Source of the DNA: Acidimicrobiales bacterium AG-414-N20
GTDB taxonomy: Bacteria > Actinomycetota > Acidimicrobiia > Acidimicrobiales > MedAcidi-G1
NCBI GenBank assembly: GCA_003214465.1
Contig: QCLO01000003.1
Span: 62,001 to 126,000, forward strand
DNA: 64,000 nt
Direction of reading: 5' to 3'
In this document: piece by piece, positions 39,757 through 64,000 of the stretch
Numbering within the stretch: position 1 is the stretch's first letter
Layout of the letters: each line of letters begins with the position of its first letter
The notes under the pieces: generated by a model
The model's input: the letters and a program-made list of their open reading frames with translations, nothing else
The model's database searches: none
Told to the model about the DNA's origin: nothing
Translations under genes and position numbers: made by a program

Positions 39757-39839
39757 CCGTTGGAGTCTATGAAAGTTATACACCTATTAATCTCGTAAGG
39801 TGTTTAACAGTTTCGGAATCATTTAAATTATGGAAAAAT

Positions 39840-45582: not shown

Positions 45583-45585
45583 AAG

Positions 45586-47055
45586 TTAAGCATGAAAAGG
45601 TGCCCGATTTTCAGACCACCTAACCATTTCCTCTAATTGAGAGCTGACCCCTAGAATTAAATCCTCTCTTCCATAAGCACCTACCAATTGAATGCCAACA
45701 GGCAATTCATTGGAATTTCCAATTGGCAGAGAGATAGCAGGCTGACCAGTCGTGTTGAATGGCGAAGTAAACACAGAGTAAGGAACAGACTCTATTGATG
45801 CCCGTATAGGGTCTTCCTCTGTTGGAACTAGCTGACCAATAAGAGGGGGAGGTTGAGCAGTTGTAGGTGTTAAAAGTAGATCAAATCCACTAGACCACCA
45901 ATTGGCTAATTCTCTTCGAAGAGTCGACATTATTCCCTGAGCTTTGACAAAATTTATAGCCGACTGTTCTTTTCCTCGTTGCGCCAAAAACCATGTTCCA
46001 GGTTCTACATCATCTTCTACTATTTCACGTCCCAAACGTTCAGCTAGGTAAGCAAAATTTGATGCAATATTTACAGACCAATTTATTCCGAACGCCCAAC
46101 CCAGTTCACTGACTCTTCCTGCATCGTTTAAAGCTTCCGGAGATGTTTCTTCAACATGATGTCCCAAATCTGATAGTAGGGATGCAGTATTGTTAACAGC
46201 TTCGATGCAATCAGGGTGCACTTCTACGCGGGTGTCAGAGATTTTAAGTCCAATTTTAAGTGGTTTTAAATTTTGAGAATTTTTATTGAAATATGGTCTT
46301 CCTAATTCAGGAGCGAAAACCCCATCACCTGGGAAATTTATTGCAGTAGCATCAAGAATTGCTGAAGTGTCTCGGACCGTATGCGAAACCACATGTTGAA
46401 TAGAAACCCCCCATTCTTCTTTTTCTGGTCCCATCGGAATTCGTCCTCTTGATGGTTTCAACCCAACCAAACCGCACATTGCAGCTGGAATTCGTATGGA
46501 ACCTCCGCCATCACTCGCGTTGGCAGCGGGTAAAAAGCCTGCTGCTACAGCGGCTGCAGCACCACCAGATGAGCCGCCAGGACCGTAATCAAAACCCCAT
46601 GGGTTTTTAGTCGGACCATACGCTAAGGGTTCTGTAGTTGCAACTGCCCCCATTTCAGGAGTGTTAGTTCTACCGACAATTATAAAACCAGCTTCTTTGT
46701 ACCTAGTGACAAGATCACTGTCGGTTTTAGCAATGTATTTAGCATCACGCATTCCTTTAACTCCTGCGTGGTGAGGTTCTCCACTTTCTTCTGCCCAAAG
46801 ATCCTTGATTAACATCGGAACACCTCTGAAAGGTCCATCAGGAAGATCAGATGAAGCCGCGAGCTCTAAAGCTTTTTCAAATTGCCGGTGGATTACAGAA
46901 TTCAGATCTTTATCTAACCTCTCAATCCTTTCAATTGTCATTGAAACGACTTCGACTGGAGATAGTTCTTTATCTCTAATCATTTTTGCTAAAGCAACTG
47001 CATCTACGCGAGATAAGTCATCATTGCTGTCTGTTTTAGATGGAGATTCAGTCAT
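45586..47055 (-). CDS. Amidase-signature family amidase
   Basis: A 489-residue amidase with the Ser-cisSer-Lys triad: Lys in VPMLIKDLW, cis-Ser in GGSSGGAAAAVAAG, and nucleophile Ser in SDGGGSIRIPAAMCGLVGLKPSRGR. Hydrolyses an amide to acid plus ammonia. GatA is unlikely because no gatB/C lies nearby. It follows the YheO/DauR-like regulator on the minus strand (28 bp), placing it under the same control as the island of nitrogen-compound enzymes, where it would release ammonia from a carboxamide intermediate (inference). Confidence 0.9.
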   Translation of the reverse strand: MTESPSKTDSNDDLSRVDAVALAKMIRDKELSPVEVVSMTIERIERLDKDLNSVIHRQFEKALELAASSDLPDGPFRGVPMLIKDLWAEESGEPHHAGVKGMRDAKYIAKTDSDLVTRYKEAGFIIVGRTNTPEMGAVATTEPLAYGPTKNPWGFDYGPGGSSGGAAAAVAAGFLPAANASDGGGSIRIPAAMCGLVGLKPSRGRIPMGPEKEEWGVSIQHVVSHTVRDTSAILDATAINFPGDGVFAPELGRPYFNKNSQNLKPLKIGLKISDTRVEVHPDCIEAVNNTASLLSDLGHHVEETSPEALNDAGRVSELGWAFGINWSVNIASNFAYLAERLGREIVEDDVEPGTWFLAQRGKEQSAINFVKAQGIMSTLRRELANWWSSGFDLLLTPTTAQPPPLIGQLVPTEEDPIRASIESVPYSVFTSPFNTTGQPAISLPIGNSNELPVGIQLVGAYGREDLILGVSSQLEEMVRWSENRAPFHA

Positions 47056-47083
47056 AGAAAAGAAGCTAGTCCCTAAAAGTCAA

Positions 47084-47443
47084 TTAGTCATTTTCAGAAC
47101 GCTCAAGATAGTTATAAACCGTAAAACGGCTAACTTCTAAAGCTTCTGCAACGCTCTCTACAGATTTCCTCAAATTGAAAACACCCCATTCATTAAGCAA
47201 AGCGACTGCTTGTTGCTTTTGAGTTCTGTCCATATCTTTAACTTTTAAATTCATTTCGACCTCGACAGCAGACAGAAGACGAGTTAAAGCTCCATTTAAA
47301 TTATGTCTACGCACTCCACCTACAACTTCACCTTCCCAAAGGAGATGTAAATCTGATTCTGATATTTCATCCTTATCTAGAATTTGAATCCCCAGAATGT
47401 CCGCTAACGGTAAGAGAGCTTCAAGTAAAGGGTGTTTTGACAT
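47084..47443 (-). CDS. Short YheO/DauR-like helix-turn-helix regulator
   Basis: A 119-residue DNA-binding protein. The C-terminal part, LLNEWGVFNLRKSVESVAEALEVSRFTVYNYL, is the HTH of the YheO/DauR family, whose founding member controls D-arginine use. The family's N-terminal PAS-like sensor (about 110 residues) is here compressed to HPLLEALLPLADILGIQILDKDE plus a short link. The start at ATG 47443 fits a promoter ending about seven bases upstream (leaderless mRNA); a GTG at 47503 would leave only 9 bp to the divergent gene. It probably regulates the divergent molybdenum-hydroxylase operon. Confidence 0.75.
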   Translation of the reverse strand: MSKHPLLEALLPLADILGIQILDKDEISESDLHLLWEGEVVGGVRRHNLNGALTRLLSAVEVEMNLKVKDMDRTQKQQAVALLNEWGVFNLRKSVESVAEALEVSRFTVYNYLERSEND

Positions 47444-47456
47444 GACCACAAGATTA

Positions 47457-47484
47457 AAGATACAGGTATCAAACGCGTTGACAA
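47457..47484 (-). promoter_or_regulatory. Promoter of the YheO-like regulator; -35 overlaps a divergent TTGACA
   Basis: On the minus strand TTGTCA (plus 47479-47484) and TATCTT (plus 47457-47462) are 16 bp apart, placing the start site within a few bases of the ATG at 47443. On the plus strand a perfect TTGACA (47478-47483) occupies nearly the same bases and could serve the divergent operon, though no good -10 follows it before 47513. The shared -35 would let one bound regulator affect both directions. Confidence 0.4.
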
Positions 47485-47512
47485 AATGTTGAAGTTCCGG
47501 CACCCTTAATAG

Positions 47513-48367
47513 ATGGGGGTAATTATCGCTAAGTCAGTTAATGAAGCATGTGCTGTATTGGCAGAAAATCCTGCGGCAACAGTACTTGCAGGCGGAACTG
47601 ACCTTATGGTGCAAGTAAATAGAGGTACACACTCTTTGGAAACTGTTTTAGACCTAAGTCGAATACCTGAATTGAAAAAATGGACCATGGAAGACAACCA
47701 AATCATTTTAGGAGCAGGAATTTCTTATACAGATTTGACGCATCCCCAATTATCAGCATTTTTTCCTGCTTTAGCGCAAGCAGCAAGAACAGTAGGTTCC
47801 CCACAAATACGCAATGCAGGTACTTTGGGAGGTAATTTAGCTACCGCATCACCTGCCGGAGATACAATTCCTGTGCTCGTAGCAATGGACGCATCTATGC
47901 AATTGAAATCGTCGACAGAAACTCGAGAAGTTTCTATTACAGAATTTATAACTGGCGTTAAAGCAAATGCCCTAAAACCGGGCGAAATTATTGAATCGAT
48001 AAAAGTCCCTATATTCAAAGGGCCTCAGGAATTTCTAAAAGTCGGGACCCGAAACGCAATGGTTATTTCAGTTGTTTCCTTGGCATTAGTAACAGATTAT
48101 TTAGAGAGAAAATTAAGGATAGGTGTAGGTTCTGTATCGCCTGTCCCGTTCCGAGCGACTGAAGCAGAAGAATTTATATCAGATAAATTTGACTGGGAAA
48201 CCAACAGAAATCTCTCAGAAAAAGTTATAAACAAATTTTCTGAACTAGTGGCTAATTCAACAGAACCCATTGACGACCATCGAGGAACTGCAAATTACCG
48301 TAAACACGCAGTAAAAGTTTTAGCTAAGAGAGCTTTGGAAAGAGTTAGCGCGGGAGATATAAAATGA
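47513..48367 (+). CDS. Molybdenum hydroxylase FAD-binding subunit (CoxM/XdhB type)
   Basis: A 284-residue medium subunit carrying FAD between the iron-sulfur and molybdenum subunits. FAD-phosphate loop TVLAGGTDLMVQ near residues 22-33, and TVGSPQIRNAGTLGGNLATASPAGDTIP, the second FAD signature, are clear; the C-terminal CO_deh_flav_C domain follows. It starts the plus-strand operon with no clear ribosome-binding site at ATG 47513. It overlaps the 2Fe-2S gene by four bases. As the only FAD subunit in the island, it may also serve the fused enzyme at 53359. Confidence 0.92.
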   Translation: MGVIIAKSVNEACAVLAENPAATVLAGGTDLMVQVNRGTHSLETVLDLSRIPELKKWTMEDNQIILGAGISYTDLTHPQLSAFFPALAQAARTVGSPQIRNAGTLGGNLATASPAGDTIPVLVAMDASMQLKSSTETREVSITEFITGVKANALKPGEIIESIKVPIFKGPQEFLKVGTRNAMVISVVSLALVTDYLERKLRIGVGSVSPVPFRATEAEEFISDKFDWETNRNLSEKVINKFSELVANSTEPIDDHRGTANYRKHAVKVLAKRALERVSAGDIK

Positions 48368-48864
48368 TTTCTGAAACTTACAGCCTCTTAGTAAATGGTA
48401 AGAGTTACCAAGTTGTCGATGGCCACCCATCTGAAAGTCTTCTATGGGTTTTAAGAGAAAGGCTGGAACTTTCCGGATCAAAAAACGCCTGTGAGGAAGG
48501 GGAGTGTGGGTCTTGCACGGTTCTTGTTGACGGAGAAATTGTTTGTAGTTGTTTAGTGCTTGCAGCGTCTGCTGTAGGTCGCGAAATCACCACAATAGAA
48601 GGACTGGGCTCAGAAGACGAAATCTCAGATGTTCAGAAAGCTTTTGTAGACGCAGGAGCAGTCCAGTGCGGATTCTGTACACCAGGGTTACTGGTAGCGA
48701 TAGATCAACTGTTGAATACAGATCCTGATCCAGATGATTTGACGGTTAGGGAAGCAATTAGTGGAAATCTTTGCAGGTGTACCGGTTATGGAAGGATCCT
48801 CGAAGCTGTTCGGATAGCAAGTAAAAACCGAAAAGTTCAAAATCAAGAGGAACAAGGCAAATGA
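48364..48864 (+). CDS. Molybdenum hydroxylase 2Fe-2S subunit (CoxS/XdhC-small type)
   Basis: A 166-residue small subunit. The N-terminal plant-type ferredoxin cluster uses C43, C48, C51 and C61 or C63 (ACEEGECGSC...VCSC), and the C-terminal helical cluster uses CGFCTPG and CRCTGYGRI. Two [2Fe-2S] clusters pass electrons from the molybdenum centre to FAD. ATGA-type overlaps on both sides (FAD and Mo subunits) indicate coupled translation. Confidence 0.95.
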   Translation: MISETYSLLVNGKSYQVVDGHPSESLLWVLRERLELSGSKNACEEGECGSCTVLVDGEIVCSCLVLAASAVGREITTIEGLGSEDEISDVQKAFVDAGAVQCGFCTPGLLVAIDQLLNTDPDPDDLTVREAISGNLCRCTGYGRILEAVRIASKNRKVQNQEEQGK

Positions 48865-51146
48865 GTCGGCTTCAAACTGTAGATACTGCTACTAAAGGAT
48901 CTCGAATAGGCGAGAGTGCTATTAGGCCAGATGGAGTTCCAAAAGTTAAAGGAGAATTTGTATTTTCCAATGATTTGCGTCACCCTGACATGATTTGGGG
49001 AGGGACTCTTCGATCGCCACACCCATCTGCACGAATAGTTTCGATAAATACAACTCCTGCTCTGAAAATGACGGGAGTGTACGCGGTCTTGACAAGCGAA
49101 GATCTGGACGGCATGCCATTGTACGGACTTGAGCACCCCGACCAGCCAGTTTTAGCAGACGGAGTCGTGAGATTTCAGGGTGAACCGGTAGCAATAGTTG
49201 CAGCTGATCACCCTGACAATGTAAGACTCGCTTTGGAAGCAATAGATGTCGAATATGAACTAATTGAACCACTTTCGGACTCAAAGCTGGCACAAGAAAA
49301 TGAAGCGATACATCCGGATGGAAATCTTTTCAGGGAAATAAACATAAATTATGGAAACTCTCAAGAAGAGGGAGAAATAACTGTTGAAGGAACATATGAA
49401 GTAGGGATGCAAGATCAAGCGCCTTTGGGAACAGAATCAGGAATGGCAGTTCCATCAGAAGATGGAGGAATTGACCTTTTTGTATCGACCCAATGGCTAC
49501 ATGCTGACCGTGATCAAGTCGCTGCCTGTCTAAATCTTCCACCGGAAAAAGTAAGACTTACGTTGGCAGGAGTCGGAGGGGCATTTGGCGCAAGAGAGGA
49601 TATCAGTCTTCACATACATCTTTGTCTCCTGGCTATGAGAACTGGTAAACCCATAAAGATGTCATATTCTCGAACTGAAAGTTTCCATGGACACGTACAC
49701 CGTCACCCAGCGCAGATGTGGTACCGGCATCATGCTAAATCTGACGGAACACTTATACGAATTGAAGCCCGACTACTTTTGGACGGGGGGGCTTATGCCT
49801 CCACAAGCAGCGCTGTATTAGCTAACGCTACTTGTTTTGCGGCCGGGCCGTATCGAGTGCCCAACGTCGAAATATATGGAGCTGTAGTTAGGACAAATAA
49901 TCCCCCTTGCGGAGCTATGAGAGGATTTGGATGCGTGCAAGTTTGTTTTGCCCATGAAGCACAGATGGACAAACTGGCCGTTGAACTAGGTATGGATCCT
50001 GTTGAATTACGAGTAAAGAACGCTCTCGAACCTGGAGATCAGATAATAACCGGACAAACTATTACGGGGACAGCTCCAGTGGCTGAAGTTATAGAGACAT
50101 GCGCTCAACATTCCTCTTCTGTAGGCCCAGCATCACAACAAATGGAGCTACCAGGAGGTGCAGGGAGAACTGCTGATCCAAAACATATTGTAAGAGGAGA
50201 AGCTATTGCAGTTGGATTCAAGAATCTCATGTTTTCAGAAGGATTTGATGATTTCAGTACCGCATCGTGTCAGCTTTTAGACGGGGTAGCGACGATTACA
50301 TCTGCATGTGCCGAAGTTGGCCAAGGTTTTGTGACACTGGCTCAGCAGATAGTCAGAGAAATTTTAGGAGTTGAAGAAGTAATTTTGGCACCCGCTTCCA
50401 CAGCTAGCGTGGGATCGGCGGGCTCCACTTCAGCTAGTAGACAAACTTGGATGTCGGGTGGTGCAGTTAAGAGTGCGTGTGATGCGGTGCGCATCAAACT
50501 TTTGTCTCGCATCGCAGAATCTCATGATCTAGATGTCGAATCTTTGGTAATAGTTGATGGAGGAATAGCTTCCTTATCAAGCGAGTTCTCGATCAGTTTG
50601 AAAGAAGCTACTTCTGATCTAGTAGAAGCAGAAGAGGTCTATCGACATGTACCCACTTTCCCCTTAGATGAAAATGGTCAAGGGAATGCCCATGTTTCTT
50701 TTGTATTTTCAGCACATAGAGCAGTAGTGGATGTGGATCAGGAACTTGGATTAGTCAAAGTCGTCGAATTAATAACTTCCCAAGATGTAGGAAGAGTATT
50801 GAACCCACTGCAACTTCAAGGCCAATTGGAAGGTGGAGCTGCACAAGGTCTTGGCTTGGCTGTAATGGAGGAAATTAATGTTGTAGACGGTCGAATTCTG
50901 AATCCGTCTTTTACCGATTATCTCCTACCTACTGCTCTTGACATGCCACCTGTAGAAATAGCAGCGCTTATAGAACAACCAGAACCTAATGCACCTTTTG
51001 GAGCGAAAGGTGTTGGAGAGCCTCCAGCCATTTCATCGACAGCTGCCATAGCTTCAGCAGTCAGAAATGCTACGGGTTTAGATCTTCATAGGGTCCCAAT
51101 TAGACCTACAGACATTGTTTTTCCAGAAAGGAACGATAATGACTGA
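48861..51146 (+). CDS. Molybdenum hydroxylase, molybdopterin-binding subunit (xanthine dehydrogenase type)
   Basis: A 761-residue catalytic subunit that hydroxylates a carbon in an N-heterocycle or aldehyde using water. It opens with the ab-hammerhead domain (VKGEFVFSNDLRHPDMIWGGTLRSPHP), has VGGAFGAREDIS at the Mo-cofactor loop, AMRGFG, and the catalytic base in GAKGVGEPPAIS near the C-terminus. It lacks the AYRGAGR signature of CO dehydrogenases, so xanthine-dehydrogenase-like activity on purines or similar rings is more likely. Its last eight bases overlap the carbamoylase start. Confidence 0.93.
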   Translation: MSRLQTVDTATKGSRIGESAIRPDGVPKVKGEFVFSNDLRHPDMIWGGTLRSPHPSARIVSINTTPALKMTGVYAVLTSEDLDGMPLYGLEHPDQPVLADGVVRFQGEPVAIVAADHPDNVRLALEAIDVEYELIEPLSDSKLAQENEAIHPDGNLFREININYGNSQEEGEITVEGTYEVGMQDQAPLGTESGMAVPSEDGGIDLFVSTQWLHADRDQVAACLNLPPEKVRLTLAGVGGAFGAREDISLHIHLCLLAMRTGKPIKMSYSRTESFHGHVHRHPAQMWYRHHAKSDGTLIRIEARLLLDGGAYASTSSAVLANATCFAAGPYRVPNVEIYGAVVRTNNPPCGAMRGFGCVQVCFAHEAQMDKLAVELGMDPVELRVKNALEPGDQIITGQTITGTAPVAEVIETCAQHSSSVGPASQQMELPGGAGRTADPKHIVRGEAIAVGFKNLMFSEGFDDFSTASCQLLDGVATITSACAEVGQGFVTLAQQIVREILGVEEVILAPASTASVGSAGSTSASRQTWMSGGAVKSACDAVRIKLLSRIAESHDLDVESLVIVDGGIASLSSEFSISLKEATSDLVEAEEVYRHVPTFPLDENGQGNAHVSFVFSAHRAVVDVDQELGLVKVVELITSQDVGRVLNPLQLQGQLEGGAAQGLGLAVMEEINVVDGRILNPSFTDYLLPTALDMPPVEIAALIEQPEPNAPFGAKGVGEPPAISSTAAIASAVRNATGLDLHRVPIRPTDIVFPERNDND

Positions 51147-52383
51147 AGATCTTCGAATAAATGGTGACCGTCTTTTGAGTCGTATTGAAGAATTAGCATC
51201 TATAGGGGCTATCGATGGGGGTGGTTCTTGCCGCCTTGCCCTAACGGATGAAGATCGAGCAGGTCGCGACCTTGTTGTTACATGGATGAGAGATTTAGAT
51301 CTCGATATAAGTATTGATTCAATTGGAAACGTAGTAGCAGTTAGACCTGGAAAAACTGATGGTCCGCCAACTATGACAGGAAGTCATATCGACACTGTTA
51401 GAACTGGGGGGAGATATGACGGCAATTTAGGCGTACTCGCAGGTTTAGAGATAATAGAGTCTCTTTCTGAAAATAAAATTGAGACCCAACATCCAGTAGC
51501 AGTTGCTTTTTTTACCGATGAAGAAGGTTCTAGATTCGCACCGGACATGTTAGGCAGTCTCGTTTATGTAGGAGGAATGACACTTGAGGAGGCCTTAGAT
51601 ATAAAAGGTGTTGATGGGGCCAAAGTCGGAGATGAATTAGACCGCATTGGTTATAGAGGGACCTCTCCTTGCCCCGGTCCTTCACCTAGAGCTTTTGTTG
51701 AGTTGCATATTGAACAAGGCCCTGTTTTGGAAGTAGAAGGTGTAACAATAGGAGCTGTTACAGGAGTGCAGGGGATTTCATGGACTGAGCTCACAGTCAC
51801 TGGAGAATCTAATCATGCAGGAACCACTCCAATGGCTCTTAGACGTGATTCAGGCTTTGCAGCCGCCGCGATTTCTACTTATGTCCGTGATCTATCTTTA
51901 GAAATGGGAGGAAGTCAAGTAGCTACAGTTGGCAGACTCGAGCTTCACCCTAACTTGGTGAATGTGGTGGCAGGTTCAGCTGTTTTGACTGTAGATCTAA
52001 GAAACACTGTCGAGGCTTATTTATTAGAGTCTGAAAATAAGCTTGCTGATTTTCTATTAGAACTAGCTTCAAATGAAGGTTTAGAAATTGAAAAAAGACA
52101 ATTAGCTAGATTTGAGCCTGTCGAATTCAATCAAGAAGTTGTTGACACAGTAGAAAATATAGCTTCCCGACTAGGGCACTCAGTAATGAAACTTCCGTCT
52201 GGTGCAGGACATGATGCCCAGATGATGGCAAGAGTTTGCCCAACAGGGATGGTATTTGTGCCAAGCCACAAAGGGATAAGTCACAACCCACAGGAACATA
52301 CAGATTCCGATGACCTCATTGCAGGTTGCAACGTTTTATTCCAGACGATTCTTGATTTAGACATGAAAGATCTCGGAGGCTAG
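51139..52383 (+). CDS. M20-family N-carbamoyl-amino acid / allantoate amidohydrolase
   Basis: A 414-residue zinc-dependent amidohydrolase of the HyuC/AllC/beta-ureidopropionase branch. Metal ligands are in GSHIDTVRTGGRYDGNLG, TDEEGSRF, ELHIEQGPVLE and the C-terminal HNPQEHTD; SGAGHDAQMM is also conserved. The dimerisation lid lies between. It hydrolyses N-carbamoyl-L-amino acids, allantoate or ureidoglycine-type ureides. Start ATG at 51139 has AGAAAGGA upstream; an in-frame extension to 51115 lies inside the Mo-subunit gene. The next gene is a D-type carbamoylase. Confidence 0.9.
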   Translation: MTEDLRINGDRLLSRIEELASIGAIDGGGSCRLALTDEDRAGRDLVVTWMRDLDLDISIDSIGNVVAVRPGKTDGPPTMTGSHIDTVRTGGRYDGNLGVLAGLEIIESLSENKIETQHPVAVAFFTDEEGSRFAPDMLGSLVYVGGMTLEEALDIKGVDGAKVGDELDRIGYRGTSPCPGPSPRAFVELHIEQGPVLEVEGVTIGAVTGVQGISWTELTVTGESNHAGTTPMALRRDSGFAAAAISTYVRDLSLEMGGSQVATVGRLELHPNLVNVVAGSAVLTVDLRNTVEAYLLESENKLADFLLELASNEGLEIEKRQLARFEPVEFNQEVVDTVENIASRLGHSVMKLPSGAGHDAQMMARVCPTGMVFVPSHKGISHNPQEHTDSDDLIAGCNVLFQTILDLDMKDLGG

Positions 52384-52387
52384 AAGT

Positions 52388-53353
52388 ATGACACGTATTT
52401 TGAAAGTAGGCGCGGCTCAACTTGGACCTATACAGAGAGATAACAATAGAAAGATAGTAGTTGAGAGACTTATTGCGCTTTTACATAAAGGAGCAGCGGA
52501 ATCTTGCGATCTTGTGGTTTTTCCAGAATTGGCTCTTACAACCTTTTTCCCGAGATGGTGGTCGGAAGACATATCCGAATTCGATCATTTTTTCGAAACC
52601 GAAATGCCGAATCAAGAAGTTCAGCCATTATTTGATAAGGCGAAAAAATTAGGAGTCGGTTTTCATTTGGGTTATGCAGAAATGACTCCTGATGGTCATC
52701 GTTACAACACCGCAATTCTTGTTTCCAAAAACGGTGACAAGCTCGGTAAATATCGAAAAGTTCATCTTCCCGGCCATGAAGAGAATGAGCCTTGGAGAAC
52801 TTTTCAGCATTTAGAACGCTACTACTTCGAACCTGGTAACGAATTAAAGGTATTTGGAGCGTTTGATGGAGTTTTGGGTATGGCTATCTGTAATGATAGA
52901 AGATGGTCAGAAACCTACAGGGTGCTTGGATTGCAAGGTTGTGAGCTAGCACTTATTGGGTATAACACCCCAGTCCATTACCCTCCTGATCCAAGCCAGG
53001 ATGTTTTAGCTGGCTTTCATAATCATTTGGTAATGCAATCAGGTGCATATCAGAATGGGATGTGGGTAGTTGGAGTAGCTAAAGCTGGCAATGAAGAAGG
53101 TTGTGATCTTTTAGGAGAGAGTTCGATAATAGCTCCATCTGGTGAAATCGTTGCTCAGTGTTCAACGGTAGAAGACGAATTAGTATCAGCAGTTGTCGAT
53201 TTAGACATGTGTGCAAACTATAAGGAAACTCTTTTCGATTTTGATCGTTACAGGAGACCCGAGGTATACAAGTCAATTACTTCGCAAGTTGGTGTTGAAA
53301 TACCTGAAGGAATTGAAGTTCGAAAACAAGACGATGAAAACCCTGAAGGATAG
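52388..53353 (+). CDS. N-carbamoyl-D-amino acid hydrolase-type nitrilase-superfamily enzyme
   Basis: A 321-residue carbon-nitrogen hydrolase that closely follows the Agrobacterium N-carbamoyl-D-amino acid amidohydrolase pattern: VFPELALTTFFPRWW, FETEMP, KYRKVHLPGHEE, MAICNDRRWSE and YNTPVHYPP...FHNHLVMQSGAYQNG. The catalytic triad would be Glu47, Lys124 and Cys168. It removes the carbamoyl group to give amino acid, CO2 and ammonia. Preceded by GGAGG and only 4 bp after the M20 carbamoylase. Substrate stereochemistry is inferred from family resemblance. Confidence 0.88.
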   Translation: MTRILKVGAAQLGPIQRDNNRKIVVERLIALLHKGAAESCDLVVFPELALTTFFPRWWSEDISEFDHFFETEMPNQEVQPLFDKAKKLGVGFHLGYAEMTPDGHRYNTAILVSKNGDKLGKYRKVHLPGHEENEPWRTFQHLERYYFEPGNELKVFGAFDGVLGMAICNDRRWSETYRVLGLQGCELALIGYNTPVHYPPDPSQDVLAGFHNHLVMQSGAYQNGMWVVGVAKAGNEEGCDLLGESSIIAPSGEIVAQCSTVEDELVSAVVDLDMCANYKETLFDFDRYRRPEVYKSITSQVGVEIPEGIEVRKQDDENPEG

Positions 53354-53358
53354 TTGAC

Positions 53359-55941: not shown

Positions 55942-56986
55942 CGAGCTTATTGGGTCAAATGAGACGTATGGTCTTGTTTGCGCCCACCATCACCTTTATT
56001 CAACGCTGGCTAGAGGAATGCCTGCACCAGCGAGCCAGCCTGACAACTTTGAAGAGATACTAAAGTTAGTCTGGTGGCGACTTGATAGAGCCCTTGACCT
56101 CGAATCGATTAAATGGTCTGCGATGCTGGGAGCCCTTGAAGCGCTCGAGCGTGGATGTACAGCAATTGTCGATCATCACGAATCCCCAGAAGCGATCGAA
56201 GGTTCTTTGAGCGTTATAGCCGAGGCTTGTGAAACTGTCGGTATAAGAGTCTTGTGTTCTTATGGAGTAACTGATCGGCATGGTCCTGATGGAGCAAAAA
56301 AAGGATTAGAAGAAAATAGAAGGTTTTTGGAAGAAGGGGGACGCGGAATGGTCGGTTTACATGCGTCCTTCACATGTGAAGATGAGACAATAGAATCTGC
56401 TGTTGAAATAGCTGAAAGTTTTGGTGTTGGTGTTCATGTCCACGTAGCAGAAGGTGCAGTAGATGCAAATGCTGTTTCAAGATTAAAGAACTATTCAAGA
56501 GACAATTGGCTCATTATTCATGGGGTGCATCTTGAAGATAGTCACGATCTGAAAGGAATTCTGGTTCATAACCCTCGATCAAACATGAATAATTCTGTCG
56601 GATACGCCAATCCTGTTCGCTTTAGCAACCAGATTGCATTAGGCACAGATGGAATTGGCGCAGACATGCTTGAAGAGTTTCGTCTTGCTTATGCACGTCA
56701 TCGTGAGTCTGATGTAAAAGCTTCGCCAGAGATAGCTTGGGAATGGCTAACGAATGGCTATCGAGTTGTTCCCGAAGCAATGAACGATCGGGTTGTTTGG
56801 GATTACCCAAACATGGACCCCTGGGAGCTCGCATTTTCAACAGGGGTTAATCCAATAGAGGTTATAGTCGAACAAGAAACCATTTGGTCAAATGGGACAC
56901 CAACTCTCGTCGACCCTCATGAAATTAGAGCGAAAGCCGCTGAACAAGCAAGAAAAGTTCACGCAAGATTAGCTGAAATTGTTTGA
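55934..56986 (+). CDS. SsnA-like amidohydrolase, N-terminally short
   Basis: A 350-residue COG0402-type metal-dependent amidohydrolase/deaminase. The HxH ligand pair is H18/H20 in [60 protein letters not shown] and [10 protein letters not shown] follow as in SsnA. SsnA is about 440 residues; this one lacks most of the ~60-residue N-terminal beta-sandwich strand region before HxH, and the preceding 24 in-frame codons do not supply it. SsnA accompanies selenium-dependent xanthine dehydrogenase in other bacteria, and here it overlaps that gene by eight bases. Confidence 0.85.
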
Positions 56987-57015
56987 AGTTCAGTTTTAAG
57001 AAAAAAGGAGAGAAA

Positions 57016-58017
57016 ATGACTCGATTAGGAATATACCTTCAAGATGCACATTCGATAAGCGAAGCAATCGAATATGCACAGTATGCCGAGTCGAATGGTT
57101 TTGAAGCTGTATGGCAGGCTGATTCACGTCTTGTTCGTGACGCTGTTGTACCTATGGCCGCATTTGCAGCAGAGACCGAAAAGATAAAAATAGGTTCTGG
57201 TGTGGTTGATTGCTGGACCCGAAATCCTGCAAGACTAGCGTCCACTTTTTCAACTTTAGATGACTTAGCACCGGGTCGAATCATTCTTGGTATTGGAGCA
57301 TGGTGGGACCCATTGGCTTCAAAGGTGGGAATAGAACGCAAAAAACCTCTAAAAGTGATGAGGGAAGTGGTTACAACAGTTCGGGCTTTGTTAGCCGATG
57401 AAACTGTTACTTACTCAGGTGATTTTGTGCAACTTGATGGTGTAGAGCTCGATTATGTATATCAGGAACGGCGACCAAAAGAGGTCCCTATATACATAGG
57501 AGCTACTGGAATGAAAATGATGGAGTTGACTGGTGAGATTGCCGACGGTGTCGTTCTTAACTATTTGGTTTCACCCGAATACAACAAAAGAGCGATGGAG
57601 CATTTAGAAATAGGGGCTTCAAAAGCCGGTAGAAGTATTGATGAAATCGACCGTCCTCAGCTTCTAGTTTGTTCCCTAGCCGAGGATCGAAAAGAAGCTT
57701 TAGACGGAGCTCGACTTATGGTCACTCAATACTTAGGACAGCAACCTCACATCATGAAGGCTTCTGGAGTTCCTGAAGAACTTCTAGATGAGATAGGTCA
57801 AGTTTTGACATGGCCGGCAACACATGAACAAGTAGAGGCAGCATCAAAATTGGTTCCTGATGAAGTTGTTCAGATGATTTGCGCTGCTGGCACTCCTGAT
57901 GAGGTAAGAGAAAAAGTAGCCCAATATATGGAAGATGGCTGCACATGTCCGATTCTCTATCCATTAGGACCAGATGTCAGATTGATGATTGACACTTTTA
58001 GCGATTGGTCACCATGA
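57016..58017 (+). CDS. LLM-class flavin/F420-dependent oxidoreductase (Mer-like)
   Basis: A 333-residue luciferase-fold enzyme resembling F420-dependent methylenetetrahydromethanopterin reductase: [75 protein letters not shown], and [25 protein letters not shown]. The ATG at 57016 has AAAGGAG five bases upstream. It lies between two amidohydrolase genes, overlapping the next by four bases (ATGA). It may oxidise or reduce a ring intermediate, using F420 (CofC is encoded at 39190) or FMN. The paralogue at 60084 is in the converging operon. Confidence 0.85.
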
Positions 58018-59312
58018 ATAACCGTTTAGTCATAAGGGGATTGCGGTACCCCGGTGACATAGCTATAGAAAATGGTGTCATAACTGAAGTTGGCTTAGTT
58101 GAACCGCAAGACAATGATCAAGTGGTTACTTGCACTGGAGATATAGCTACTCCAGGTTTGATAAATACTCATCACCACTTATATCAATGGATGACACGTG
58201 GACGAGCAGTTGGTTGCAACTTGTTTGATTGGTTGGTGCATCTATACCCTGTCTGGGGCAAACTGTCGGTCGATGATGTGCATGCTGCTGCGCTAGTCGG
58301 TTTAGGTGAATTAGCCTCAACAGGCTGCACAACAGCATTTGACCATCACTACTTGGTGCCAAATGGTGACGACTCAGTGTTTGATGCAATAGTCGAGGCA
58401 GCTCAACAGGTCGGAATTAGATTACATTTATCACGAGGCTCTATGGATCTTGGAGAGAGCCAAGGGGGGCTGCCCCCAGATCATGTTGTAGAAGATCGAG
58501 AAGCAATCCTTTTATCTACAGAATCAATAATTTCAAGACATCATGATGGGGAAATGGTTCACGTTGTTGTGGCCCCGTGCAGCCCTTTTTCCGTGACCAC
58601 GGAATTAATGATTGATTCTGCGGAGCTTGCTAGAAAACACGGTGTTCGTCTTCATACTCATCTTTGCGAAACTTTAGAGGAACAAGAGTACTGTCTTGAG
58701 AAATTTGGAAGGCGACCAGTCGAGATGTTGGACGAATGGGGTTGGGTTGACAATGATGTTTGGCTGGCACATGGTATCCACATTGATAAAGAAGAAATGC
58801 AGAGACTGGGAGGAGCAGGTACAGGTATTGCACATTGTCCATCCTCGAATGCGCGTTTGGCAGCAGGAATGTGCCCGGTGACAGATCTTTTGGAAGCAGG
58901 TTGTCCGGTCGGACTTGGAGTAGATGGGGTGGCTTCGAATGAGATCGGTGGTTTATTCCCAGAACTTAGACAAGCACTTTTTACTGCACGGCAAAGAGAA
59001 ATGAGACCTGATGCTCTTATGCCAGAAGAAGTAGTCGAGATGGCAACAATAGGTGGAGCGCGCTGTTTGGGCTTAGAGGATTTAGGAAGTTTCGCAAAAG
59101 GCCAAAAGGCAGATATTGCTATTTGGCCGGGTGCAGACCTAGGTGATATTCAAGATTCTATAACGGGTCTTGTAATGGGACCAGACAGAAGAGTGAAGCA
59201 CCTTTTTGTTGGAGGAAACCAGATCATCGATCATTCAGAGTTGAAAAATGTTGATATGAGTTCGGCTTATTTAGAATTATCTACACATGCCAGGCGACTT
59301 TTTGATGATTGA
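58014..59312 (+). CDS. Amidohydrolase, 8-oxoguanine deaminase-like
   Basis: A 432-residue COG0402 deaminase with the full two-domain plan: N-terminal beta-sandwich, then [21 protein letters not shown] (metal ligands H53 and H55), [36 protein letters not shown] and [12 protein letters not shown]. These match the 8-oxoguanine/isoguanine deaminase and hydroxyatrazine aminohydrolase group, which deaminates purine or triazine rings. ATGA overlap with the LLM gene. It ends the plus-strand operon and converges on the minus-strand operon. Confidence 0.88.
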
Positions 59313-59380
59313 TCACAAATTAAAAGCAGCTTCGAGTCCTTTTTAGTTACTTTTCTAGTCTCATGTGACGGAACTGCCAA

Positions 59381-60082
59381 CTAGTTAAAAGGGCTTGCAA
59401 CTCCAAATTTTGCCTTTTCTCCAGTTAAAGCGCCCCAACGGCGTGTACCGAACTCAAAATGCCACCACTCCTCTTCAAAAACAACAAAGTTATGTGTGTG
59501 CATCGTCCAATACAAAAAACGACGAAAATCCCTATTAAAACCTGAGATTTCTTCTAAAAAATCGGCTCTAGCTGCAGGAGAAATATCATCAAATCCTGAT
59601 CCGGGTGCCAAAGGAACATTATCAACGGTGAAAGTAAGGTCAACTGCTCCGCCAGTCAAATGAGGAGGTGGAGCAACAGGATCGCTGCTTGGTTCGGCGA
59701 ACAATTCTTCCGGAATCAGTGGATCTTCGCATGCGGTTTTAAAAAGTTCATTTTGTAGAGCCAGCGGTCTCCATGCATCAAAAATGGCCAATCCCCACCT
59801 GTCCGGTAGTTCTTCAGCTATGTCATATAGTTTTTCTGCAACAGATTCACGGATCCAGCAGCCATCTATAGCATTTTCCCAGCCTGCTTCCCAGTAGCAA
59901 TTCAGCAGTTTGACATCGGGGTGCTTTAATTCAACAAGAGGTTCGTTATCAAATATTTCCAAATCAGATGCTTTAGGTTCCTGCAATTCAGGGATAGCTT
60001 CTGATTCAGGAATGTTTATGTTGACATTTTCAAAAAATTTTTGCACGTCAGTGGTAAGAACAGGTTCTCCAATTTTTTGCAT
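59381..60082 (-). CDS. D-alanyl-D-alanine dipeptidase (VanX/M15D family)
   Basis: A 233-residue zinc dipeptidase. VanX-type residues are visible: Arg105 in DAWRPLALQ, His141 and Asp148 in PHLTGGAVDLTF, and Glu205 and His208 in EEEWWHFEFG. The family cleaves D-Ala-D-Ala and related short peptides. It has no resistance ligase or dehydrogenase (vanA/H) next to it and no signal peptide, so peptide or amide nutrition is more likely than vancomycin resistance. ATG at 60082 has GAAGG upstream, inside the end of the previous gene; TTG at 60094 is the alternative. Last gene of the minus-strand operon. Confidence 0.85.
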   Translation of the reverse strand: MQKIGEPVLTTDVQKFFENVNINIPESEAIPELQEPKASDLEIFDNEPLVELKHPDVKLLNCYWEAGWENAIDGCWIRESVAEKLYDIAEELPDRWGLAIFDAWRPLALQNELFKTACEDPLIPEELFAEPSSDPVAPPPHLTGGAVDLTFTVDNVPLAPGSGFDDISPAARADFLEEISGFNRDFRRFLYWTMHTHNFVVFEEEWWHFEFGTRRWGALTGEKAKFGVASPFN

Positions 60083-60083
60083 A

Positions 60084-61049
60084 TTAACCTTCAATAACCT
60101 GAGCTGTTATTTCAAGTAAAGAGACTCCGTTATCAGGTTCAAACACCGGAATCATGAATTCATTAAAACCATGAATTTCAACAAGACGAGCAAGCTCTTC
60201 AGCACATTCGCTTACACTTCCAGAGATCACGAAAGGTAGAACCCAATCATCAGACACGTATTCGGCCGCTGCTTCAAGGCCATCAGCAAGAGAACTGCGG
60301 ATATTTGAAACATCTTTTTCAGTGACACCCAACTCATCGAGCACTGTCTTAGGCGAGTCCACCAGACGGTATGTCATATGAGGTCTAACAATTTCAAGAG
60401 ACTCATCGTCAGTGACGATCATTGTTGAATAACAAATTTTCGGATTGTTGCTCCCACGTTCAGCGCCCATCCTTATCTTCTCTACATATTCACCGAGTGA
60501 AGGTTTGAAAATAAAATCCAGCATCACTCCATCAGCAGTAGAACCACCAAGGTCAAGCATTTTAGGGCCACGACCAGCCAACCAAATTTCAATATCAGAT
60601 CTTCCATAATTTAATTCCGCAGAATTGAAAGAAAATACTGGTGCCTCCAAATCAACTTTTTCACCAGCGAACAACTGTCGACAGGCAGAAATAGTTTGAC
60701 GAACAGTTTCGATAGGTTTGTAACGCTCGATTCCAAGAGGATCCAAAGTTAAACTTCCACCGGCTCCTATTCCTAAAAAAGCACGACCGTTAGACATTTC
60801 ATCGAGCGAAGCTATAGCAGCAGCAGTCTGACCCGGATGACGGGTGTAAGAATTCGTAATACCGGGACCAACCACTAATTTTTCAGTAGCCCGCAGAATC
60901 GCAGTCATAGTGACATAAACATCTCGAGTTGCTAAACCTTCGTCATACACCCAGCAGCGCTCAAAACCCAACTTTTCAGACCTGATAGCTAAATCACGTA
61001 TCGAGTCAACTGAAGTTTCTGGAATGAGATTGACACTTCCTGGAATCAT
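60084..61049 (-). CDS. LLM-class F420-type oxidoreductase (Mer-like, second copy)
   Basis: A 321-residue luciferase-fold protein: LAIRSEKLGFERCWVYDEGLATRDVYVTM, LVVGPGITNSYTRHPGQTAAAIASLDEMSNGRAFLGIGAGG, and IEIWLAGRGPKMLDLGGSTADGVMLDF, a Mer-like plan as in the 57016 gene but clearly diverged from it. Sits between YqeC and the dipeptidase, 9 bp after yqeC. Having one in each arm of the island suggests both work on the island's substrate. Cofactor F420 versus FMN is not resolved by sequence alone. Confidence 0.85.
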   Translation of the reverse strand: MIPGSVNLIPETSVDSIRDLAIRSEKLGFERCWVYDEGLATRDVYVTMTAILRATEKLVVGPGITNSYTRHPGQTAAAIASLDEMSNGRAFLGIGAGGSLTLDPLGIERYKPIETVRQTISACRQLFAGEKVDLEAPVFSFNSAELNYGRSDIEIWLAGRGPKMLDLGGSTADGVMLDFIFKPSLGEYVEKIRMGAERGSNNPKICYSTMIVTDDESLEIVRPHMTYRLVDSPKTVLDELGVTEKDVSNIRSSLADGLEAAAEYVSDDWVLPFVISGSVSECAEELARLVEIHGFNEFMIPVFEPDNGVSLLEITAQVIEG

Positions 61050-61058
61050 CTAAGAAAC

Positions 61059-61796
61059 CTATCCTTTGTTATGACTTAGAACTAGAGAAATTTCAACTTT
61101 TGGGTCAAAACTCTGAAGCTCTTCAACTAAACGGTTAACAATATTTTGGTTTTTAGTAGAAACCTTCGTAATTGCTATAACGAAACGCATTCCATTTTCT
61201 AACCCTTTTCTAGATCCGTTCGAATCAAGTAAAAGAACGGCAGCCCTTTGCGGGGTGAGTCTTTCATAAGGAGAACAATTAACTACTGCAGCGACCCTCA
61301 GAGGTCTATGGCATTGGTCTTCAATAACTCTATCAATCGCATCAGCGCCGATCACTGCAATAACAGTTGTTACACCTAGGGGTAAAACAGGTTCGTAAGG
61401 CGCAGGAGCCTTAGCAGGGTGCCGCCTTGCCCCATCTGCTTCAACAATGACTCTGGTTGCTTCGGGTAGCCAGCTTTCTGGCAGTGAAGGGTCAACACCG
61501 AAAGCTTTTTCACCCTCGACGCGATCCCATATTAGAACAGGAGAAGTTCCGTCCAAGGCTCCGACAAGTTCCTTTTCGGAAGGACTAACAAGTAAAGTTG
61601 CTTCTCCTGTTTGGTCACTCCCCATTTTAGTTGTTGTAGTTAAAATCGTGCCTTTACCGTGAAGTTCTCCAAGCGCCTTAAGAAGAGTTGATTTACCCCC
61701 ACCTCCGACCAGAGCAACTATCTCACCTTCTTTTATCCCTAGATTTTCGACAGCCTTGTGAACCTCTAAAGGTTCGATTCGTTTTTTTCTAACCAT
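61059..61796 (-). CDS. yqeC: YqeC-family selenium-dependent molybdenum hydroxylase maturation protein
   Basis: A 245-residue P-loop protein: Walker A is ALVGGGGKSTLLKAL (near residues 28-42), then TILTTTTKMG, and VIVEADGARRHPAKAPAPYEPVLP, the signature of the YqeC family. It is a marker gene of genomes with selenium-dependent molybdenum hydroxylases, thought to act in selenium or Mo-cofactor insertion. Its start overlaps the 3' end of the yqeB-like gene by 31 bases in another frame, so translation is coupled. selD is not in the window. Confidence 0.88.
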   Translation of the reverse strand: MVRKKRIEPLEVHKAVENLGIKEGEIVALVGGGGKSTLLKALGELHGKGTILTTTTKMGSDQTGEATLLVSPSEKELVGALDGTSPVLIWDRVEGEKAFGVDPSLPESWLPEATRVIVEADGARRHPAKAPAPYEPVLPLGVTTVIAVIGADAIDRVIEDQCHRPLRVAAVVNCSPYERLTPQRAAVLLLDSNGSRKGLENGMRFVIAITKVSTKNQNIVNRLVEELQSFDPKVEISLVLSHNKG

Positions 61797-62569
61797 TTAG
61801 TTACAGCTTCCGTTACGCCGTTTCCAACTGCTAGAGCCTTGTCAGAAACTTTGCTTACATCAACATTCGCACCTCTCGGGTCGATATCTCCGATCTTCAT
61901 GCCAGCTTCTAGCAGCATGCCCTCATTAATCATTCCACGAATCAGTCCGCTAGTTCCGGCAACTATACAGCTATCTCCTACGGAGCCGATTACTTCACCT
62001 TTTTTGACTAAATCGCCTATGTCCTTCATCCAGTGAATTTCCCCATTAGAAGGAGAACGCAATAATCGCTCACTTGTAAGCCCTCCAACTTCACCAGGAA
62101 TTCCTGTATCTTTATGTGCATAACCATCCCAAATGACTTTCCCCAGATTCGGTCCGCGCATGGTCTCGATAACAGCATGGCAGTCCTTACCTGCAAAGAA
62201 ACCAGGTCCAAGAGCAACAACTAGTTCGGCATCATCGATTTTCGTATCCATAGGGTTTTTCATCATTCTGGCATCGACAATTACAGAAATGGGAAAAGTT
62301 GGAAGAGTATCGCTAATTAGAACTGGGACAACGTTAGTAAACGTAAAGTCATCAACATTTGAAAGGTCATCAACTCTTTCGCCTATTATTTCTTCTATTT
62401 CTATTTTTTTGTCGAGAATCGCTGACGAAAGTGAAACTTTTCTTCTTACCGCCAAAGGATTTTCTAAATCAAATACGACTACAGGCATTCCTTTTCTTTT
62501 CAACTGAAGAGCGACACCGGTTCCCAGATCGCCGCCTCCACGAATTAAACAGAGATAATCAGAAATCAC
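61766..62569 (-). CDS. yqeB: YqeB-family selenium-dependent molybdenum hydroxylase maturation protein (EF2563 type)
   Basis: A 267-residue protein starting LCLIRGGGDLGTGVALQLKRKGMPVVVFDLENPLAVRRKVSLSSAI, the nucleotide-binding opening of the YqeB/EF2563 family, with DARMMKNPMDTKIDDAELVVALGPGF and MRGPNLGKVIWDG in the middle and a C-terminal biotinyl-like DIGDLVKKGEVIGSVGD segment. It is expected to take part in making the selenated Mo-cofactor. It lies 2 bp after the XdhC-like gene and overlaps yqeC by 31 bases. Confidence 0.88.
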   Translation of the reverse strand: MISDYLCLIRGGGDLGTGVALQLKRKGMPVVVFDLENPLAVRRKVSLSSAILDKKIEIEEIIGERVDDLSNVDDFTFTNVVPVLISDTLPTFPISVIVDARMMKNPMDTKIDDAELVVALGPGFFAGKDCHAVIETMRGPNLGKVIWDGYAHKDTGIPGEVGGLTSERLLRSPSNGEIHWMKDIGDLVKKGEVIGSVGDSCIVAGTSGLIRGMINEGMLLEAGMKIGDIDPRGANVDVSKVSDKALAVGNGVTEAVTKWLEKNESNL

Positions 62570-62571
62570 AG

Positions 62572-63375
62572 TTAATTATTACTAGTATTATCTTTTTCGA
62601 TGATTTGAGACACGATAGAAATAGCTATTTCTTGCGGGGTCTCGGCATTCAAATCTAGACCTATAGGAGAAGTGACTCTAGATAGATCTTGTTCGGAAAT
62701 GCCAGCTGAGGATAGTGAAGAACGAGTGGTTTCCCATCGTCTAGAGCTTCCCATCACTCCGATTGATTTTGCATCAGTAGAAAGTAAATGAGGAAGATTC
62801 TGGATATCCAATTCAGCATTACGTGTAACTGCTACTACATGATCTTGATTGGTTAAATTGACCTGTTTTAAGGCATCTTCAATTGAGCCGGCGATAACAA
62901 GATCCGCCCCCGTTACATCATCGGCAAGTTCCTCTCGGTCGTCAGTCGCGACGACGTAATAGCCCAACCAGCTAGCAAGTTCCGCCACGGCTCTTCCAAC
63001 ATGACCGCATCCGATAATAAGAATTTTAGAATTGGGCATATAGGCCTCCAAGTGAATAGTAACCGTTCCACCACAAACACCTGGATCTCCAGCTACTGGA
63101 TCAACTAGCTCATAGTTCAGCAGAAGTGAAGTGCCGTCGTCCATGCAGGCGCAGGCTTCTTTTATCACCCGCGCTTCCATTTCTCCACCACCTATAGTTC
63201 CAATTTGATTAGAGTCGGAAAGTATCAACATTTTTGCTCCGGAATGACGTGGTACAGATCGAGAAGTTTCCACAACGGTTGCCAGTACAACAGTATTTCC
63301 TTCATCAACGAGTTCATTGAGTTTGTTCAGTATCTGAGTTTCATCGATACCCTTACTGAGATTCTTTTTACTCAT
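62572..63375 (-). CDS. xdhC: XdhC/CoxI-family molybdenum cofactor maturation protein
   Basis: A 267-residue maturation factor that delivers the sulfurated (or selenated) Mo-cofactor to hydroxylases. The N-terminal XdhC-CoxI domain shows VVLATVVETSRSVPRHSGAKMLI and IGTIGGGEMEARVI; the C-terminal Rossmann domain has ILIIGCGHVGRAVAELASWLGYYVVATDDREE and VAVTRNAELDIQNL, and then GVMGSSRRWE. ATG at 63375 has GGGGTG upstream and overlaps the preceding amidohydrolase by eight bases; a longer in-frame reading to 63453 lies inside that gene. Confidence 0.92.
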   Translation of the reverse strand: MSKKNLSKGIDETQILNKLNELVDEGNTVVLATVVETSRSVPRHSGAKMLILSDSNQIGTIGGGEMEARVIKEACACMDDGTSLLLNYELVDPVAGDPGVCGGTVTIHLEAYMPNSKILIIGCGHVGRAVAELASWLGYYVVATDDREELADDVTGADLVIAGSIEDALKQVNLTNQDHVVAVTRNAELDIQNLPHLLSTDAKSIGVMGSSRRWETTRSSLSSAGISEQDLSRVTSPIGLDLNAETPQEIAISIVSQIIEKDNTSNN

Positions 63376-64000
63376 TTTCACCCCAGAGGCGTTTAGCTTG
63401 CCGATGAATTGACTCTCTTTGCTTTTCAAGATCGACCCCAAGAATCTCACCATTTTTTAACTTCCATACTCCATCAATCATCACAGAGTCGACATGATTG
63501 CCAGATCGATGAAGTATTACTTGTTCGATCAGGTTTTCTTCACTTAAGGGAGTTGGAAAGTTCGCGTCAATTAATTGGAGGTCAGCTACAAAACCTGGTT
63601 CCAAAGCACCGACATTATCAAGTCCCAGTGCTTTGGCTCCCTGGAGAGTTGCCATTTCAAAAACTTGGTCTGCCAGCATTGTTCCAGGGTCTTGAAGACG
63701 CGCTTTGTGGATAAGAAAAGCACCACGCATTACCTCAAACATATCATTTATGTATCCGTCGCTTCCCAGAGAGATACACACATCTTTTTCAAGCAGTTCG
63801 GGAATAGGAGCTATTCCACCTCCGACTTCACAATTAGACAAAGGCATATGGACACAACGCGTTCCGGAAGATGAAATTAATTCAATTTCCCTTTCGGATA
63901 GATGGACACACTGTGAAGCCAGAAATCGGGGGCCGTTTATTCCAAGTTTTTCGTAATGCTCGAAAGTCCGGTGTCCAAAAGTTTTTTCACACCAGTCTCC
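63368..64000 (-). CDS. Amidohydrolase (COG0402 type), C-terminal part, cut by window edge
   Basis: The frame is open to the right edge, giving 210 residues of a C-terminal half. It includes the ligand segment ASQCVHLSEREIELI, VHMPLSNCEVGGGIAPI, the catalytic Asp in SLGSDGYINDM, then the closing beta-sandwich with the typical ATLQGAKALGLDNVGALEPGFVADLQLID and VMIDGVWKL. The family deaminates or hydrolyses ring C-N bonds. It is the first gene in this window of the minus-strand yqeB/yqeC operon and a third amidohydrolase in the island. Its N-terminal HxH lies outside. Confidence 0.87.
   Translation of the reverse strand, partial: GDWCEKTFGHRTFEHYEKLGINGPRFLASQCVHLSEREIELISSSGTRCVHMPLSNCEVGGGIAPIPELLEKDVCISLGSDGYINDMFEVMRGAFLIHKARLQDPGTMLADQVFEMATLQGAKALGLDNVGALEPGFVADLQLIDANFPTPLSEENLIEQVILHRSGNHVDSVMIDGVWKLKNGEILGVDLEKQRESIHRQAKRLWGENE

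Follow-up and report, generated by a model that had tools for sequence, protein, structure and literature searches.

A probable reductive-type purine and uric acid degradation cluster with a predicted F420-dependent reductase in Acidimicrobiia

A stretch of 64,000 nucleotides from the draft genome of Acidimicrobiales bacterium AG-414-N20 (1.8 Mb, about 85% complete; positions G000:C3:62001-126000, hereafter the window and numbered from its first letter) carries 12 genes at 45079-59312 (block 1), and we suggest that this cluster probably serves the reductive breakdown of purines and uric acid, with an enzyme using coenzyme F420 carrying out the dearomatisation. A reductive route of uric acid degradation is known from anaerobic (gut) bacteria and has relevance to gout. 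In Escherichia coli, urate is reduced to yanthine by XdhD and dearomatisation is carried out by YgfK (UacX in Clostridioides difficile), the rings are opened by SsnA and HyuA, two ureido groups are removed by YgeW or UacY and by YgeY, and diaminopropionate is finally cleaved by YgeX (PMC12507026). SsnA clusters of Chloroflexota encode a luciferase-family, putatively F420-dependent protein in place of YgfK/UacX, and the F420 exchange is thus partly anticipated for that phylum by Li et al. (2025; PMC12507026). New here are (i) the occurrence in Acidimicrobiia and haloarchaea, (ii) a counted exchange with YgfK, (iii) a linkage to npdG/cofC, (iv) the involvement of a D-carbamoylase, and (v) a separate second module.

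The preliminary description of the window had recognised 17 adjacent genes as an N-heterocycle/ureide degradation island, and this holds: all 17 open reading frames (ORFs) are present and profile matches confirm the families that had been named. Its suggestion that the pathway may be undescribed does not stand, as the reductive uric acid pathway (PMC12507026) matches most steps, and the outcome that it had named as refuting, gene-for-gene agreement with a characterised purine pathway, is found in part.

Block 1 synteny was read by mapping the island proteins onto 20 kb stretches from relatives, which are Acidimicrobiia metagenome-assembled genomes, several of marine sample origin, with ORFs in the high-GC relatives called by codon-position GC. 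The 12 genes keep their order and strand in six of six genera of the window's family (44-98% identity), with the exception that the amidase gene at 45586-47055 is absent from some genomes of g2, and because of this conservation the grouping is not due to chance. Moreover, the genes at 47513-59312 look like one operon, since they lie on a single strand and either overlap slightly or are no more than 29 bases apart. Other families of the class have a reduced core that consists of genes for an M20-family carbamoylase (M20), a homologue of D-carbamoylases (Nit), a fused molybdenum (Mo) hydroxylase (SeXDH) and SsnA, plus either a Mer-like protein (LLM1) or YgfK.

Exchange of LLM1 and YgfK

Among 80 loci with SeXDH, LLM1 is present in 44, YgfK in 18 and both in none, an exclusion with a Fisher p of 1.6e-6 over the 51 loci with enough flank, relatedness being uncorrected. 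YgfK was counted by its reductase domain, and the widespread matches to profile positions about 430-940 were left out. Genome-level counts, which cover 61 genomes (42 with SeXDH and 19 without), give the same picture: 37 of the 42 genomes contain LLM1, four the YgfK reductase domain (G042, G052, G053 and G060), none contains both, and the single genome with neither (G034) has its SeXDH gene at a contig end. Neither LLM1 nor YgfK is found in any of the 19 genomes lacking SeXDH. The SeXDH tree requires at least three switches between LLM1 and YgfK, and in G052 and G053 YgfK is located between M20 and Nit. The YgfK reductase domain was not found in the genome of AG-414-N20 itself; UacX was not searched for genome-wide.

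LLM1 (57016-58017, + strand) is closest to Mer by sequence as well as by fold. Its best solved relatives are Mer (E=8e-45, about 33% identity) followed by Fgd1 and an F420-dependent alcohol dehydrogenase; its AlphaFold model (pLDDT 90) has its best fold match in Mer (TM 0.87), and each of the top 30 matches of the fold search is an enzyme of F420 type, whereas FMN monooxygenases and luciferases rank lower. LLM1 differs from Mer in gene context and most likely in its substrate. Combining the exchange with the sequence and model comparisons, we propose that LLM1 is an F420-dependent dearomatising reductase that takes the place of YgfK. Because of this exchange, the proposal could be tested on a small number of purified enzymes and on laboratory-grown haloarchaea.

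Seven loci of one branch (including L120 and L128) have neither LLM1 nor YgfK near SeXDH-SsnA. There, the gene after that for SsnA appears by eye to encode a NUDIX hydrolase-like protein.

Proposed route from purines to pyruvate and ammonia

SeXDH, a fused 2Fe-2S/Mo hydroxylase (53359-55941, + strand), is 38% identical over its full length to the fused xdh of an Enterococcus faecalis plasmid cluster in which ssnA, ygfK, hydA, dpaL, ygeY, ygeW and arcC are present as well. In a tree, the SeXDH group and E. faecalis xdh are sisters (support 1.0), and the block 2 Mo hydroxylase MoH3 groups with E. coli XdhD (support 0.95); both MoH3 and E. coli XdhD have lost 2Fe-2S cysteines. Aligned with rat xanthine dehydrogenase, SeXDH keeps E802, R880 and F914 (hand count on the alignment) and does not keep F1009, and the catalytic Glu is kept in a GxGE motif. 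These residues fit a purine substrate and leave the direction of the reaction open. We propose that SeXDH is an XdhD-type urate/yanthine enzyme of the Enterococcus type. The adjacent SsnA core (55934-56986, + strand; 350 aa) lacks the N-terminal part of SsnA, is 38% identical to E. coli SsnA over 292 residues and has retained both the metal ligands and motifs of SsnA, e.g. LGTDGIG.DM; ring opening is its proposed role.

From homology and gene context, we suggest the following route. Xanthine would be converted to urate by a PucD-type xanthine dehydrogenase composed of an XdhB-type FAD subunit (47513-48367, + strand, first gene of the operon; E=4e-59), a 2Fe-2S subunit of XdhC/PucE type (48364-48864, + strand; E=2e-50) and the Mo subunit PucD (48861-51146, + strand; TIGR03196 844 bits, cut-off 784), and 8-oxoguanine would be converted to urate by the 8-oxoguanine deaminase, whose gene closes both the operon and block 1 (58011-59312, + strand; NF006055 549 bits, cut-off 532; 7ww2 E=4e-94). 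SeXDH would then convert urate to yanthine (2,8-dioxopurine), LLM1 would reduce yanthine with F420H2, and the SsnA core would open the reduced ring to give ureidomethylhydantoin. Opening of the hydantoin to 2,3-diureidopropionate would fall to a D-hydantoinase encoded elsewhere in the genome (G000:C2:34929-36311), after which Nit would take off the 2-ureido group and M20 the 3-ureido group; finally, a pair of pyridoxal phosphate (PLP) enzymes encoded near the contig end (L009:18463-19689 and L012:686-2257) would turn 2,3-diaminopropionate into pyruvate and ammonia. By this route, purine nitrogen and some carbon would be gained without uricase. Of the order suggested in the preliminary description, ring opening, decarbamoylation and ammonia release are likely to stand, and the central chemistry most likely goes beyond hydroxylation and consists in reductive dearomatisation.

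The substrate had been left open in that description. The 8-oxoguanine deaminase, PucD, the SeXDH residues and the phosphoribosyltransferase at the start of block 1, together with purine genes in relatives, point to purines. In relatives, the neighbours of the core include adenine deaminase, adenosine deaminase, nucleoside hydrolase, xanthine-type permeases and BMP-type transporters, and one locus (L142) unites LLM1, SeXDH, SsnA, YgeY, HyuA-type and YgeX-type proteins, 8-oxoguanine deaminase and adenine deaminase.

The two candidates for removal of the ureido groups are encoded side by side and belong to families other than YgeW/UacY and YgeY (bit scores are given as score/cut-off where paired). 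Nit (52388-53353, + strand) is a homologue of N-carbamoyl-D-amino-acid hydrolases (8i99, E=3e-115, full length) with the CNDRRW motif kept, and this homology fits the product of a D-hydantoinase and a 2-ureido group. For M20 (51139-52383, + strand; TIGR01879 402/204 bits), the solved proteins that come closest are carbamoylases, N-carbamoyl-beta-alanine amidohydrolase among them, which would fit removal of the 3-ureido group. Nit and M20 are replaced by two carbamoyltransferases and carbamate kinase in L109, and by YgeY and a D-aminoacylase-like protein in L142; these exchanges support the roles assigned to the two proteins without proving them.

The hydantoinase of AG-414-N20 scores 566/393 bits and is 40% identical to E. 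coli HyuA. In other families of the class, a hydantoinase over the cut-off tracks SeXDH (7/7 genomes with SeXDH versus 1/17 without), and in some relatives it is encoded within the cluster. In L142 it shares the locus with a diaminopropionate lyase that is a true member of the YgeX family (330/276 bits). The two proteins that we propose as the lyase in AG-414-N20, a cysteine-synthase-like protein of 523 aa (L012) and a threonine-synthase-like protein of 408 aa (L009), accompany the clusters in many relatives.

The gene for the hydantoinase lies, as the dihydropyrimidinase gene, in a pyrimidine-type operon (L164:6750-16495, corresponding to G000:C2:28749-38494) with genes for an ABC transporter, MMSDH, an aminotransferase and a nitrilase-family beta-ureidopropionase-like protein. 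The operon also includes a TIGR03842 LLM protein (566/295 bits), and no PydA was seen in it; by analogy, this LLM protein may replace PydA as LLM1 replaces YgfK.

Related clusters and alternative readings

With the reductive uric acid pathway of E. coli and C. difficile (PMC12507026), the cluster shares an XdhD-type Mo enzyme, SsnA, two deureidating enzymes and the lack of a uricase (FAD-type urate oxidases were not searched for), and in relatives LLM1 also shares a locus with proteins of the HyuA, YgeY and YgeX types. Unlike that pathway, it has (i) LLM1, of F420 type, for YgfK/UacX, (ii) a D-carbamoylase and an M20 carbamoylase for YgeW/UacY and YgeY, (iii) a hydantoinase encoded outside the cluster in the window's family, and (iv) a host that probably respires oxygen. 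The urate cluster of E. faecalis (pCF3A-343-2, L173) has the fused xdh, ssnA, hydA and the removal of carbamoyl groups in common with block 1, and differs in having ygfK, dpaL, ygeY, ygeW, carbamate kinase and selenium genes in the same cluster and no LLM. In the Chloroflexota SsnA clusters, a PF00296 protein beside SsnA is proposed as an F420-dependent yanthine reductase (PMC12507026); these clusters belong to another phylum. On haloarchaeal plasmids (Haloarcula marismortui pNG700 and others, L170-L172), an LLM1 orthologue (58-59% identity) occurs with SsnA, a HyuA-like protein, M20, two Mo hydroxylases and a PLP enzyme ('threonine synthase'). These clusters differ from block 1 in that a D-aminoacylase (UacY-like; 32-34% to the L142 protein) stands in place of the D-carbamoylase and in that their Mo enzymes are nearer MoH3 (43%) than SeXDH. 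They also contain F420 genes, namely NADPH:F420 reductase npdG in Haladaptatus and cofC in Natrinema, as well as NCS2 permeases and either BMP transporters (Haloarcula) or adenine deaminase (Haladaptatus). Literature searches on haloarchaeal or Acidimicrobiia purine degradation did not find a description of this cluster among the papers covered.

If the proposed pathway is correct, uric acid is also degraded reductively by marine actinobacteria that probably respire oxygen and by haloarchaea, with F420 and not NADH or ferredoxin as the driving cofactor, and the purines of seawater and brines would have a uricase-free nitrogen-recycling route. Catabolism of natural N-heterocycles would become one of the functions of F420, and the automatic labels 'selenium-dependent xanthine dehydrogenase' and 'methylenetetrahydromethanopterin reductase' would be corrected.

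Several points weigh against this pathway. The activity of every protein is a prediction from homology and gene context; the counts are not independent, as loci with YgfK and loci with LLM1 share ancestry; and the host genome carries cytochrome oxidase, whereas the described pathway is anaerobic. The hydantoinase, located with MMSDH, aminotransferase and the beta-ureidopropionase-like protein, may not serve urate degradation, and the PLP enzymes are distant from YgeX (22% over 207 residues). Glu606 of E. coli XdhD was not found in SeXDH (in a loosely aligned loop) and is present in MoH3, and SeXDH could be a second purine hydroxylase because XDH-like enzymes run both ways. The presence of cytochrome oxidase makes it probable that the host respires oxygen, and this favours an oxidative alternative with an unrecognised (e.g. 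FAD-dependent) urate oxidase, M20 as allantoate amidohydrolase and LLM1 as an FMN ring monooxygenase, comparable to RutA, which opens uracil. RutA belongs to the same superfamily as LLM1, and M20 passes two NCBIfam cut-offs named allantoate amidohydrolase. However, uricase (PF01014) was found in 0/61 genomes, in which the controls were detected, FAD-type urate oxidases not having been searched for; in the genome of AG-414-N20, no allantoinase-level match was found, TIGR02033 giving only the hydantoinase (566 bits) and a dihydroorotase-level match (144 bits). A hydantoinase, of which the preliminary description saw none of a standard type, does exist in the genome outside the window. Moreover, the nearest solved relatives of M20 are carbamoylases, ahead of allantoate amidohydrolase, and LLM1 exchanges with a reductase, ranks with F420 enzymes above FMN monooxygenases and is linked to npdG/cofC in haloarchaea. 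We therefore regard oxidative degradation as improbable.

Alternatively, the same enzymes and the same reductive logic could act on another purine-like N-heterocycle as the substrate of SeXDH-LLM1-SsnA, such as a methylated xanthine, a pterin or a compound of hydantoin type. Promiscuity is a trait of both enzyme families (COG0402 deaminases and Mo hydroxylases), the identity between SeXDH and E. coli XdhD amounts to only 23%, and block 2 shows that paralogous sets exist within the same genome. Such a substrate, which we consider unlikely, is opposed by agreement with the urate pathway in the SsnA motifs, in the exchange with YgfK and in the L142 relatives of HyuA, YgeY and YgeX, and also by the purine deaminases, enzymes of nucleoside metabolism, xanthine-type permeases and BMP transporters that lie near the core in relatives. 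That all 17 genes form one selenium-dependent pathway, as was first read, is suggested by their adjacency in the window and by the presence in the genome of YqeB, YqeC and a SelD whose gene has an in-frame TGA where selenocysteine is usually encoded. Synteny rules out the island as a single unit: block 2 (59381 onward, past 64000) adjoins block 1 only in g1, g5, g6 and one g4 genome, and in g2, g3 and the rest of g4 its place after block 1 is taken by genes for a BMP-type ABC transporter and two PLP enzymes. In addition, SeXDH-bearing g2 and g3 genomes are without YqeB, and SelD was not found in G038, a single contig of 99% completeness that has SeXDH. We consider a single selenium pathway very improbable; the 17 genes are adjacent parts of two modules, of which block 1 is conserved in order in six genera and block 2 is not.

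Block 2, selenium and further genes

The selenium-Mo maturation factors that the preliminary description listed are indeed present and belong to the separable block 2: YqeC, for selenium cofactor biosynthesis (61059-61796, - strand; TIGR03172 144/73 bits), YqeB, for selenium-dependent Mo cofactor biosynthesis (61766-62569, - strand; TIGR03309 294/220 bits), and an XdhC-type Mo cofactor maturation factor (62572-63453, - strand; PF13478 and PF02625). YqeB over the cut-off accompanies block 2 and occurs besides in G016, G020 and G052. Because YqeB tracks block 2 and G038 has SeXDH without SelD, the core enzyme SeXDH is probably selenium-independent despite its family name; its score is slightly below the cut-off of the selenium-dependent family TIGR03311 (802 vs 830 bits). 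The YqeB and SelD distributions also lead us to reject the view that selenium defines the core. The organism itself probably uses selenium and decodes selenocysteine, since its SelD gene (L015:7198-8496, on G000:C13) has an in-frame TGA in a GAGUGCK motif, as in most relatives. As a marker SelD is uninformative, 48/61 genomes having it, most with an in-frame TGA.

Block 2 begins with an M15 (VanX-type) protein (59381-60094, - strand; PF01427 43/27 bits) and the Mer-like LLM2 (60084-61049, - strand; 28% to LLM1), and the window ends within a second SsnA-like amidohydrolase, SsnA2, whose C-terminal part (63368-64000, - strand; 28% to E. coli SsnA) runs into L009:1-699. Beyond the window (L009:1-9300, corresponding to G000:C3:126001-135300) it continues with MoH3, a YgfM-like FAD subunit, a COG0402 enzyme, LLM3 (53% to LLM1), RidA and a SsuC/TauC-type ABC transporter. 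As a tentative extension, which we think doubtful, the two blocks may be adjacent, parallel F420-linked reductive modules, block 1 for urate and block 2 for a second N-heterocycle, and reductive dearomatisation with F420 may be a strategy that haloarchaea and marine actinobacteria respiring oxygen use generally, with the LLM protein of the pyrimidine-type operon as a third case.

The remaining families were also correctly recognised from the start, i.e. the three-subunit Mo hydroxylase (47513-51146) and the fused one, three COG0402 proteins (one of them truncated where the window ends), the M20 and nitrilase-family hydrolases, the amidase, the M15 protein, two Mer-like LLM proteins and the HTH_22 regulator. 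The core in addition takes in the purine-type phosphoribosyltransferase at 45079-45582 (+ strand; PF00156), its first gene, which has the same place in family members and whose best NCBIfam match is xanthine phosphoribosyltransferase (E=5e-14, below the cut-off). The HTH_22 regulator (47084-47503, - strand; PF13309 68 bits) is divergent from the operon and conserved in position. The amidase (AmiS; 45586-47055, - strand; PF01425 E=1e-92) was considered as a stand-in for the hydantoinase, a role that is unsupported, the gene being missing from the core in other families. Upstream of the island, CofC (2-phospho-L-lactate guanylyltransferase; 39190-39783, - strand; TIGR03552 129/105 bits) belongs to F420 biosynthesis, and its presence in the window speaks for the F420 reading of LLM1.

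Around block 2, genes recognised by eye as encoding UbiD-like (L009:13236-14579) and UbiX-like (L009:16803-17384) decarboxylases are conserved in genus g1, and prenylated-FMN chemistry is possible for their products. Elsewhere in the genome, L013:5075-6610 (on G000:C2) encodes a fused 2Fe-2S/Mo-hydroxylase-like protein of 511 aa that seemingly lacks much of the Mo domain.

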